Shown here: positions 14,688 through 18,560 of the stretch, piece by piece
Position numbering within the stretch: position 1 is the stretch's first letter
How the letters are laid out: each line of letters begins with the position of its first letter
DNA from: Collinsella phocaeensis
GTDB taxonomy: Bacteria; Actinomycetota; Coriobacteriia; Coriobacteriales; Coriobacteriaceae
Assembly (NCBI RefSeq): GCF_900119895.1
Contig: NZ_FQLR01000004.1
Coordinates: 806,001-870,000, forward strand
Length of the DNA stretch: 64,000 nt
Direction of reading: 5' to 3'
Notes under the pieces: model-generated
The model's database searches: none
The model's input: the letters and a program-made list of their open reading frames with translations, nothing else
Told to the model about the DNA's origin: nothing
Made by a program: the position numbers and the translations under genes

Positions 14688-16037
14688 CTAGTGCTCCGAG
14701 TCCAGATCGATCGTCGTCCCCTCGAGCACCTTGTTGACCGTGCGCACCGCACACATCTTGCCGCACATCGTGCAGGTGCCCTTGGTGGCCGCCGGCGATG
14801 CCTCGTAGCGCTCGCGAGCCGTCTGGGGATCGAGGGCGTACTTCCACATCTCTTCCCAGTCGAGCTTGCGCCGGGCCTGCGCCATGCGGTTATCCGCGTC
14901 GCGCGCGCCGGGGACGCCCTTGGCGATGTCGGCCGCGTGGGCCGCGATCTTGGTCGCCATGAGGCCTTCGAGCACGTCGTGGGCGTCGGGCAGGCACAGG
15001 TGCTCGGCGGGGGTCACGTAGCATAGGAAGTCCGCGCCGGCCGAGGCCGAGATGGCGCCGCCGATGGCCGCGGTGATGTGGTCGTAGCCCACGCCGATGT
15101 CGGTCACGAGCGGCCCCAGCACGTAGAAGGGGGCGTTGTGGCACAACCGCTTTTGCAGCTTGATGTTCGCTGCGATCTCGTCGATCGCCATGTGCCCGGG
15201 GCCCTCGACCATGACCTGCACGCCGGCGTCCCAGGCTCGTTTGGTGAGCTTGCCCAGCTCGATCATCTCGGCGGTCTCCATGGCGTCGTTGGCGTCGTAG
15301 AGGCAACCCGGGCGGCAGGAGTCGCCGAGCGAGATGGTCACGTCGTACTCGTGGCAGATTTTGAGGACCTCATCGTAGAACTCGTAGAAGGGGTTCTCGT
15401 TGCCGGTGACCTCCATCCAGCCAAAGAGCAGGCTGCCGCCGCGGCTCACGATGTTCATGAGGCGGCCGGTCTCCTTGAAGGTCTTCACCACCGAGCGGTT
15501 GATGCCCGCGTGCACGGTGACGAAGTCCACGCCGTCCTCGGCATGCACGCGCAGGACCTCGAGCAGGTCCTCGGCGGTGAGTTCGACCAGCGGTTTCTCC
15601 ATGTAGCCGATGGCGTCGTACATGGGCACGGTACCCACCATGAGCGGACACTCGTCGATCACCTGTTGGCGGAAGGCACGGGTCTTGCCGGAGTTGGAGA
15701 GGTCCATGATGGCATCGGCGCCGCGGTTGATGGCGATGCCGACCTTCTTCCACTCCTCGGCTGCGTCGGCCTTGTCGCCCGAGATGCCGAGGTTCACGTT
15801 GACTTTGGTGGAGAGGCCCTCGCCCACGCCGCGCGGGGTGAGGCCGCGATCGATATGGCGGATGTTGGCCGGGATGGCAATGGTCCCCCGGGCCACGCGT
15901 TCGCGGATGTACTCGGGGTCGCGCCCCTCGTGCTCGGCCACGGTGCGCATCTGCGGGGTGATCTTGCCCGCGCGGGCGAAGTCCATCTGCGTGATGGGCT
16001 CGTTCGGCGGATTGCCGGCGGTGTTGATGGTGCTCAT
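14688..16037 (-). CDS. thiC: Phosphomethylpyrimidine synthase
   Basis: 449-residue radical-SAM enzyme that rearranges aminoimidazole ribotide into the HMP phosphate of thiamin. The chain matches ThiC throughout (IPANIRHIDRGLTPRGVGEGL, GDSCRPGC, VMVEGPGHMAIDEI, DIGVGYDHITAAIGGA) and ends with the noncanonical cluster motif CTMCGKMC, cysteines intact. It lacks the long N-terminal extension of plant and many proteobacterial forms. ATG 16037 has AAGGGAG 8 bases upstream, which lies in the 3' edge of the TPP riboswitch, so ligand binding can block initiation. First gene of the thi operon. Confidence 0.97.
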   Translation of the reverse strand: MSTINTAGNPPNEPITQMDFARAGKITPQMRTVAEHEGRDPEYIRERVARGTIAIPANIRHIDRGLTPRGVGEGLSTKVNVNLGISGDKADAAEEWKKVGIAINRGADAIMDLSNSGKTRAFRQQVIDECPLMVGTVPMYDAIGYMEKPLVELTAEDLLEVLRVHAEDGVDFVTVHAGINRSVVKTFKETGRLMNIVSRGGSLLFGWMEVTGNENPFYEFYDEVLKICHEYDVTISLGDSCRPGCLYDANDAMETAEMIELGKLTKRAWDAGVQVMVEGPGHMAIDEIAANIKLQKRLCHNAPFYVLGPLVTDIGVGYDHITAAIGGAISASAGADFLCYVTPAEHLCLPDAHDVLEGLMATKIAAHAADIAKGVPGARDADNRMAQARRKLDWEEMWKYALDPQTARERYEASPAATKGTCTMCGKMCAVRTVNKVLEGTTIDLDSEH

Positions 16038-16042
16038 GCACT

Positions 16043-16140
16043 CGCTCCCTTCGTTGGCATTATCCATATCAGGTTCTTCGGGTCGGGGCGGGCGCCGCCC
16101 CCTCTCAGCTTGCCGTCTCGTCCTGCAGGCTCCCCGTGAT
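16043..16140 (-). promoter_or_regulatory. TPP riboswitch (THI element)
   Basis: On the minus strand the leader of thiC reads CACGGGGAGCC, GCTGAGAGGGGGC, GACCCGAAGAACCTGAT, then GGATAATGCCAACGAAGGGAG, in the order and spacing of the THI element: P1 5' side, the CUGAGA pyrimidine-binding loop, the ACC(C)..AACCUGAU segment and the GGAUAAUGCCA..GAAGGGA pyrophosphate helix. The ribosome binding site of thiC (AAGGGAG) is part of the 3' strand of P1, which points to translational control, though premature termination at some other structure cannot be excluded. Confidence 0.93.
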
Positions 16141-16158
16141 ATGCAGTTGTCGGTTCCG

Positions 16159-17286: not shown

Positions 17287-18342
17287 ATGGATGTTGTGCT
17301 TTGGGGCATATCCGCATTGCGGCTGTATAGGATTCCTCCGTGGCTGAGGAGGGGCCTTGCCGCACGCTTCGCACGTGCGTACCTGCTGCATCGTCCTTCA
17401 GCCGTTGACCAGCTCGCGGTCGATCTGATCGGGCGCCCCGTCCATGTCATGGTTCGCGAACGCGCCGCCCGGTGGAGTCTTAAGCACGCGAAGTGCCATC
17501 TGTGGAGCGCCGACCTCCCTGCTGGCGCCGTGGAGGAATGCGGTCCTTATGTGTCCTGCGCCGCGCCGGAGTTCGCCCTGCTTCAGCTCGCGCCTTTCGT
17601 TCCCTATATTCATCTGTGCATGCTGCTCCATGAAGTGTGCGGCGGCTTCGCAGTCTGCGAGCTGCCCGACGCCGTTCGCGATGAGCTCCAGGCGCTCGTG
17701 GGGAAGGGCTGGCACGGCAGCGAGGGCTGGTGCCCGGTACTGGATGGTGCGGGCCGGTTAACCGACCTTTGGCAGCGGCCCGCGTGCGTTGAGGTGGGGA
17801 GCGTTGCGCGATTCGCCGAGCGCAACGCGAGCGCTCGAGGAGGTGCGCGGCTCCTGCGCGCGACGCAGGATTGCTTCGGGTGCGCCCGATCGCCTTTTGA
17901 GGTGCGCGCGGCGCTGCAGTACGGCCTTTCGCGCATGCGAGGAGGCGAGGGGAGGCACGTGCGCCTGGATGGGCGGATCGACCTATCGCGATCGGGAAGG
18001 ATTCTGGCGGACCAGTCGGTATGCTACGCGGATCTGCTGGCCGAGAGCCGAGATGGCTCCAAGCAGCTGGTGATCGAATGCCAGAGCAGGCTGATTCATT
18101 CAACGGCCGAGCGGCAGCTGCTGGACTTCGATCGCCAGGTGGCGTTGCAGGCGATGGGATACGAGTATATTCCGCTTACCTATGCGCAGTTGAAGAGCGA
18201 TGAGAGGCATAGGGAGATGGCGGAGCTCGTGGGCATGAAGCTTGAGGGCCGTTATCTCGAGAAGTCCGCTCTGTTGAAAGAGCGGGAGCGCTCGTTGCGC
18301 CGAGAGCTGTTTTGCGACTGGCGCCGCCTGGGCGAAGTATGA
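17287..18342 (+). CDS. Unknown protein resembling AbiEi antitoxin / DUF559 nuclease-fold proteins
   Basis: 351 residues; I do not recognise an assigned function. The N-terminal two thirds (WGISALRLYRIPP, GRPVHVMV, CHLWSADLPAGAVEECGPYVSCAAPEF, LHEVCGGFAV) follow the layout of type IV antitoxin AbiEi-like proteins: a conserved SAL start, a wall of short strands, then a segment on a start-of-helix pattern. The C-terminal third (about 235-320) resembles DUF559/Vsr-like endonuclease folds: YADLLAE with Asp249, LVIECQS with Glu264 and Gln266 where a Lys or Asp is expected, then ER..LDFDRQVALQAMGYEYIPLTYAQL. No AbiEii toxin is adjacent. Base composition is lower in GC than its neighbours. ATG 17287 has a weak ribosome binding site. 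A 154-base inverted-repeat element follows closely. Confidence 0.6.
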   Translation: MDVVLWGISALRLYRIPPWLRRGLAARFARAYLLHRPSAVDQLAVDLIGRPVHVMVRERAARWSLKHAKCHLWSADLPAGAVEECGPYVSCAAPEFALLQLAPFVPYIHLCMLLHEVCGGFAVCELPDAVRDELQALVGKGWHGSEGWCPVLDGAGRLTDLWQRPACVEVGSVARFAERNASARGGARLLRATQDCFGCARSPFEVRAALQYGLSRMRGGEGRHVRLDGRIDLSRSGRILADQSVCYADLLAESRDGSKQLVIECQSRLIHSTAERQLLDFDRQVALQAMGYEYIPLTYAQLKSDERHREMAELVGMKLEGRYLEKSALLKERERSLRRELFCDWRRLGEV

Positions 18343-18406: not shown

Positions 18407-18560
18407 GCTCTCCCCCTCGAAGTGAGTGGAAAAATCGGATTCGCCCGAGTATGCGCGTCTCGCCACGGCCGTTATCTGGGGTTTTGCGAGCGAATTCAAC
18501 CTAAAACCTGCGGTCTACTTTAGGGGTCCGGAAAAATCCACTCACTTCGAGGGGGAGAGC
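18407..18560. mobile_element. MITE-like element with 24-bp perfect terminal inverted repeats
   Basis: The arms 18407-18430 (GCTCTCCCCCTCGAAGTGAG + TGGA) and 18537-18560 are exact complements over 24 bases. The 106-base interior is clearly more A/T-rich than its surroundings, with runs such as AAAATC, AATTCAACC and CTAAAACC. It encodes nothing. No target duplication is obvious. It could also be a large regulatory stem or a remnant of a larger element. Confidence 0.45.

Follow-up and report, generated by a model that had tools for sequence, protein, structure and literature searches.

A palindromic repeat and its adjoining Vsr/DUF559-like nuclease gene suggest a possible new type of miniature mobile DNA in gut Coriobacteriia

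A 154-bp palindromic element of Collinsella phocaeensis, located at positions 18407-18560 of the window (the whole 64,000-nucleotide stretch of contig NZ_FQLR01000004.1 that was analysed), is probably a miniature palindromic repeat that belongs to the adjoining gene and is spread or maintained by its protein. The association of gene and palindrome is strongly supported. Copies of the element are dispersed, palindromes adjoin the genes of the family, and the arms are gene-specific and diverge together with the protein. Inner motifs are shared between arm families, the nuclease signature of the protein is conserved, and element positions differ between related genomes. The likeliest, still hypothetical mechanism is that the nuclease mobilises the elements.

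The element consists of two 24-bp arms, complementary at 24 of 24 positions, with 106 bp in between. The left arm (GCTCTCCCCCTCGAAGTGAGTGGA; 18407-18430, + strand) contains the core GAAGTGAGTG, the part that the exact pattern search demanded of all 12 copies, and the right arm (18537-18560, - strand) is its exact reverse complement. Among inverted repeats of the 64-kb window with loops of 40-170 it scored best (24; runners-up 17, 16 and 16), and the maxima of five mononucleotide-shuffled windows were 12-14. The 154-bp element with perfect 24-bp terminal repeats reported by the initial annotation is thereby confirmed. Folded as single-stranded DNA, it reached -42.5 kcal/mol, compared with -21.8 (sd 3.1) for 200 shuffles, i.e. 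6.7 sd below. No gene predicted by a simple gene finder (trained on nine window genes; it trims the window gene to its last 127 codons) overlapped the element, in agreement with the noncoding interior noted previously. The interior had also been called A/T-rich, which is correct in a relative sense only, because its G+C content is 52.8%, compared with 67.0% in the window and 66.2% in the remaining spacer; in absolute terms it is not. Sequence reading and motif enrichment located an inner left motif AGTATGC (18448-18454, + strand), which varies on the AGTAGAC that other arm families have near relative position 0.15, and an inner right motif that reads GTCTACT on the + and AGTAGAC on the - strand (18513-18519, relative position 0.78). 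The central motif found by alignment (18473-18479; TATCTGG on the +, CCAGATA on the - strand) is the likely counterpart of CCAGTTG or CGCAGGTA in other copies. Elsewhere in the window, a TPP riboswitch (Rfam match) is located at 16028-16146 (- strand) upstream of a thiC-like reading frame.

A DNA search of the own genome returned 25 matches, nearly all to the arms, in a dozen places. The pattern GAAGTGAGTG-N92..122-CACTCACTTC occurred 12 times, with 109-112 bp between the 10-bp arm cores, and the reversed-pattern control gave 0 occurrences. The 9-mer AGTGAGTGG was found 24 times genome-wide, 22 times inside the 12 elements. All 12 copies lie between predicted genes, with unrelated neighbours in mixed orientations. 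They were aligned almost without gaps over 154 columns, and their interiors are 44-85% identical (median 51.5%). The genome search thus revealed a multi-copy, nonautonomous-looking, intergenic element with shared terminal inverted repeats. The proposed MITE form stands as far as shortness, nonautonomous look and copy number are concerned, but not as an ordinary MITE: the interiors are strongly diverged, yet the length is almost fixed. Since the own copies are old, as judged by the median interior identity, recent movement was not demonstrated. Another palindrome of the own genome (L060:6921-7131; 33-bp arms ACCCCCTACAAATTTGGACAAATCTGCCAGATA, 145 bp in between) is unrelated.

Exact arm patterns were present in four of 43 genus genomes: the own genome (12 copies), G021 (4), G035 (7) and G041 (8). 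An outer CTCTCACCCCC-like tract is common to most arms in the own species and G021, and is not seen in G035 and G041. The A/T tract inside the arms is non-complementary in at least 4 of the 12 own copies; the data therefore do not require hairpin use. Matching of the two arms within own copies was compared with permuted arms, with p = 0.017 for the outer and 0.41 for the inner tract. For 19 mixed rows (G021, G035, G041; at least one locus entered twice) the same test yielded p = 0.003 and 0.002, respectively, values that species mixing alone could explain. Folding the 12 copies to a consensus returned the arms together with a small hairpin and a single isolated pair. That the element is a structured RNA (a UTR element or small RNA) instead of a DNA element is scarcely credible. 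Its strong predicted fold, which would suit an RNA, was computed as DNA, and no Rfam match fell on the element in a search of 12 loci at E up to 1 (two matches elsewhere were below cut-offs). Together with the non-complementary A/T tracts this led to the RNA reading being set aside; the mixed orientations of the genes around the 12 copies also speak against it.

In a named genome collection, 27 stretches matched the arm pattern, 21 of them titled Collinsella. Of the other six, three are from uncultured Coriobacteriaceae MAGs, one is from a Slackia MAG and two are from Melainabacteria-like MAGs. These last two (L062 and L072; Gastranaerophilales/Melainabacteria) were rejected as chance-like, judged by their interiors. 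A viral-contig element was likewise discarded (single arm-pattern match, interior apparently unrelated), and viral contigs contained no homologue of the two query proteins. Two distant loci found by the arms alone (Slackia L068 and Coriobacteriaceae MAG L082) have, approximately 100 bp upstream of the element, a gene homologous to that of the window, and these homologues led to the gene-plus-palindrome finding.

For the genus, a homologue search gave about 130 matches, from which 70 loci were taken further; L183, which gave no match on re-search, was left out. A palindrome with a score of at least 13 was found within 300 bp of 62 of the 69 family genes, compared with 10 of 845 background tiles. 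The suggestive position beside the window gene pointed out by the initial annotation has therefore proved relevant. The seven misses were L121 (first half of a split G021 gene), L137, L163, L172, L173, L184 and L188; for L163 (11) a palindrome appears with wider flanks. Outside the genus, palindromes were detected at 17 of 24 loci (17/23 genes) in six genera, three of the 17 being marginal (L267, L269 and L283, the last the sole positive of its genus, G054). With six G035/G041 loci added, the wider test was positive at 23 of 30 loci (28 genes). Short PF18741 proteins from relatives in other Actinomycetota were compared (13 of 30 loci taken, those with short reading frames), and a palindrome was present at none of the 13. 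Among the 62 genes, the palindrome is on both sides in 15, upstream only in 20 and downstream only in 27, the window gene included; where both sides are occupied, the palindromes have 8-26 bp of arm sequence in common. Arms are mostly 80-110 bp apart, with a common centre. No recognised transposase using the same ends was found among the examined family genes; the gene adjoins, or sits between, complete palindromes. The second paralogue of the own genome (L165, C1:936642-937682) has its own adjoining palindrome CGTTTTTCGTACGC, of which no dispersed copies were found in the examined part of that genome.

The cognate gene (17287-18342, + strand) encodes 351 aa, for which profiles indicate an N-terminal part distantly related to AbiEi and a Vsr/DUF559/MTES_1575-like nuclease domain (E205, D249, E264, H271). 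Its third-position G+C is 0.74, compared with 0.86-0.97 in five neighbours, so that the foreign or unusual composition noted before is a fair description. Contrary to what had been assumed, it is no orphan: 42 of the 43 genomes of the genus contain homologues (E up to 1e-6). Most genus genomes hold several matches, the family being multi-paralogue in Coriobacteriia, and a profile search found it in 9 of 11 genomes, seven of these from six other genera. Residues S202, E205, G219, D249, E264, H271, R283 and L287 are kept in 38 diverged members, and the signature S202, E205, D249, E264, H271 is invariant across them. The kept residues form the pattern of Vsr/DUF559-like PD-(D/E)XK nucleases.

Pfam matches at E up to 0.1 were weak (MTES_1575 in 22 and DUF559 in 11 of the 38 members, plus four single-member matches), and the Y1 transposase model was not among them. 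The window protein, at 17.1 bits, is below the curated MTES_1575 cut-off of 38.2. The best solved match of the family profile was the mobile intron protein 3r3p (E 0.0023), a Vsr-fold (EDxHD) homing endonuclease. Eight MTES_1575 plus DUF559 proteins from other Actinomycetota, six of them with AbiEi_4 (E up to 0.01), aligned with the family over 245 columns (hhalign E 1.9e-14). Profile comparison and a few weak PADLOC matches thus suggest a distant AbiEi relationship of the N-terminal part, and the C-terminal domain is by its profile matches a Vsr/EDxHD/DUF559-type nuclease relative and not a recognised transposase. A structure model predicted from three sequences was of poor quality (mean pLDDT 51). 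A defence or toxin-antitoxin-like function, with the nuclease checked by, or guarding, its own palindromes and the dispersed copies serving as decoys or self markers, is improbable. The AbiEi_4 domain that occurs together with MTES_1575/DUF559 in the Actinomycetota relatives (6/8) and the PADLOC matches (HEase 6/38, AbiEi 2/38 members) would fit it. At the window locus, however, no toxin partner and no AbiEii nucleotidyltransferase gene adjoins the window gene, whose neighbours are YaaA and M18 peptidase genes, and the relatives in other Actinomycetota are without palindromes (0/13).

Clustering by a shared 12-bp run assigned the arms of 61 genes to 33 families. Of the 1699 pairs of proteins less than 80% identical, 0 had an arm run of at least 12 bp in common, compared with 114 of the 131 pairs with 80% identity or more. 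As many of the genes are orthologues and the pairs are not independent, the number of arm families, 33, is the better guide. Across 35 arm-family representatives, the inner motifs AGTAGAC and GCAGGTA were present in 12 and 11, respectively, whereas the best 7-mer in 100 mononucleotide shuffles reached 6. Where found, AGTAKR mostly occupies a relative position of about 0.15 and its complement one of about 0.78. In 20 of the 35, a CAGGT/CAGTTG/CAGATA-like centre is located at 0.44-0.52; another 7 have it at other positions, and in the remaining 8 none was found. A conventional transposase whose gene lies elsewhere (e.g. a Y1/HUH RAYT) might instead move the element as an ordinary MITE or REPIN, the nuclease gene being a passenger or using the palindrome only as a terminator or stabiliser. 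This would fit the GTAG within AGTAGAC, GTAG being the tag of REP elements (PMC3733652, PMC8266576). We regard this reading as quite unlikely, as the GTAG motif is internal and not at the palindrome foot, the gene association is very regular (62/69 against 10/845 tiles) and the arms track the protein.

Copies away from the gene were found in two further arm families. The second family (GTGAGTAGACTT...AAGTCTACTCAC) is present in 22 of 43 genomes with 1-5 exact copies each (controls 0), both at the cognate gene and elsewhere. A third family was encountered in G019: the spacer next to its M18 peptidase gene (L097) contains a palindrome with arms TTATGAAGCCCGTTTTCAGCGTTTCT that resemble those at the G019 family gene L162, and a family gene is absent from the surrounding 1.5 kb. 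In G008 (L234, about 1396-1485), another short repeat with several copies per genome lies directly beside a GTGAGTAGACTT element. It often occurs as inverted pairs 40-85 bp apart and is possibly a further palindromic family.

Diversity of arms, interior and flanks was determined for three gene-adjacent orthologous sets. The values were 0.013, 0.047 and 0.14 in the first set, 0.092, 0.11 and 0.11 in the second, and 0.029, 0.041 and 0.057 in the third; conservation of the arms was clear in one set, slight in another and hardly detectable in the remaining one. In two of the sets the arms diverged more slowly than both the interior and the flanks, which would also fit regulatory sites. In that case an AbiEi-like transcription factor would autoregulate via the adjoining inverted repeats, the dispersed copies would form its regulon, and the nuclease fold would be only a dimerisation or ligand domain. 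AbiEi itself is described as binding two 23-bp inverted repeats in its own promoter (PMC7319586); the palindrome is upstream only in 20/62 family genes, and all own copies are intergenic. Nonetheless, regulation is an unlikely, if serious, explanation. The palindrome lies downstream only in 27/62 genes, including the window gene, and the arms are mostly 80-110 bp apart around a common centre, compared with a 3-bp spacing reported for AbiEi (PMC7319586). Own copies stand beside unrelated genes in mixed orientations, element positions differ between close relatives, and E205, D249, E264 and H271 are invariant.

None of the four exact-arm G021 copies is near any own copy, though the M18 peptidase gene adjoining the window element shows 94% identity. 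At the window's locus, G021 has a fifth copy, one arm of which is mutated. The window gene's orthologue there (L121/L090) is broken into two frames, beside which the element persists with its mutated arm, plus an extra half copy upstream. At least 3 of the 7 G035 copies are common to G041 and thus inherited, and one more G041 copy has a degenerate counterpart in G035 that was missed by the exact pattern. Element positions are therefore partly inherited and partly different. The 7 and 8 exact GAAGTGAGTG copies of G035 and G041 are at loci L039-L049 and L061-L087, and none of the five family genes whose flanks were examined in the two genomes together carries these arms; the elements may be an orphan population or have a diverged cognate gene. 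The window locus, marked by the M18 peptidase gene, was examined in 30 of 43 genomes. Gene and palindrome are present in three of these (own, G021, G016), and the family gene is absent in the remaining 27, one of which, G019, has the palindrome described above. The G016 orthologue encodes a protein 51% identical, with entirely different arms. One copy only, conserved in place throughout the relatives, had been named as evidence against a mobile element; there are instead 12 own copies and a window locus occupied by gene and palindrome in 3/30 genomes.

Comparable loci that lack the element were found, in line with the check proposed initially, but a clean junction was not. No clean empty site or target-site duplication was detected at the compared loci, because the spacers of element-free relatives are too diverged. 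In none of 8 relatives was the yebC-lgt spacer element detected; five of the eight spacers were compared and proved unalignable, and in G021, G038 and G039 the two genes are 2.9-4.9 kb apart. At one C. tanakaei site, G040 is without the element and its spacer is 158 bp shorter, with a junction that is not clean; G035 has a degenerate counterpart. At a second-family site searched in 10 genomes, the element was present in 7, the spacer is wholly different in G002 and G003, and the contigs of G004 break inside the site.

We infer the following way of action, in which the protein of the adjoining gene would recognise the arms and mobilise the element. The N-terminal part would read the gene-specific arms of about 20-25 bp. 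Two subunits might bring the arms together, or they might bind the hairpin of a single-stranded palindrome. The nuclease domain would then nick at or near the element, with the inner AGTAGAC...GTCTACT and the central GCAGGTA as possible common landmarks. Host repair or replication could then join the freed or copied element to intergenic DNA at another place. While the short elements disperse, the gene itself would mostly stay put, as in REPIN-RAYT but with an unrelated enzyme.

The well-known bacterial example of tiny palindromic elements kept as a population by a domesticated gene is that of REPINs with their RAYTs, and the present system works most like them, but its enzyme is not the one that defines REPIN-RAYT. 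REPINs are short extragenic palindromic doublets that are dispersed, form hairpins and are tied family by family to one gene, the single-copy, vertically inherited RAYT transposase gene (PMC3116915, PMC8049555). Here, too, two inverted repeats surround a spacer and have a predicted hairpin fold, the copies are dispersed and intergenic (12/12 own; second family in 22/43 genomes), and each repeat family is tied to one gene, except for the G035/G041 population without a cognate among the examined genes. In contrast, the gene is a Vsr/DUF559-like nuclease relative and not a Y1/HUH tyrosine transposase, and the arms differ with almost every kind of gene. Copy numbers are low, with at most 12 exact copies; about ten copies here compare with the 69-235 REPINs given for E. 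coli (PMC8049555). The GTAG-containing AGTAGAC is internal (near 0.15 and 0.78) and exact in 12/35 arm families, unlike the GTAG at the foot of REPs. Some RAYT genes are flanked by long TIRs (PMC3733652), which resembles the family genes flanked by repeats that are also found elsewhere. Those RAYTs differ in enzyme class, and each flank of the genes analysed here is a complete palindrome and not a single end.

Typical lengths of MITEs, Correia/NEMIS and ERIC elements are roughly 100-150 bp, and these are intergenic, multi-copy and bounded by terminal inverted repeats. As in MITEs, the terminal inverted repeats of the window element are short and it has no coding capacity. It differs from all of these elements in its dedicated adjoining gene with matching arms, and in that the own copies agree in their arms, their length and a small number of inner motifs and otherwise have little sequence in common. 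The Vsr-type enzyme fold is already used by mobile DNA, and the nearest solved relative by profile, 3r3p (E 0.0023), belongs to the Vsr-fold homing endonucleases. Unlike 3r3p-type enzymes, the family proteins are, as far as seen, not in introns, and they are associated with short palindromes. The AbiEi_4 plus MTES_1575/DUF559 proteins of other Actinomycetota are homologous over the 245 columns and have a matching nuclease motif, but no adjoining palindrome (0/13). Type IV toxin-antitoxin AbiE differs in that no AbiEii gene adjoins the window gene at its locus.

Searches of the open PMC literature, which largely leaves out subscription papers, found no title or abstract that describes these elements or their gene association. 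The pairing of gene and element across gut Coriobacteriia suggests that a type of miniature mobile DNA has so far gone unrecognised. Tentatively, and with the chances somewhat short of even, it may be a separate class in which a Vsr/DUF559-type nuclease with an AbiEi-like arm reader spreads and maintains its own palindromes of about 120-155 bp, i.e. an independently arisen counterpart of REPIN-RAYT derived from a DNA-repair or homing-type nuclease, with dozens of arm specificities in gut Coriobacteriia. If an unrelated enzyme does likewise, the REPIN type of life would have arisen more than a single time, and a function would be found for a nuclease family that is poorly understood. The family would also provide a natural set of protein-DNA specificity pairs, in which the matching of arms to proteins (33 families, 61 genes) would be a ready-made code for how these proteins read DNA.
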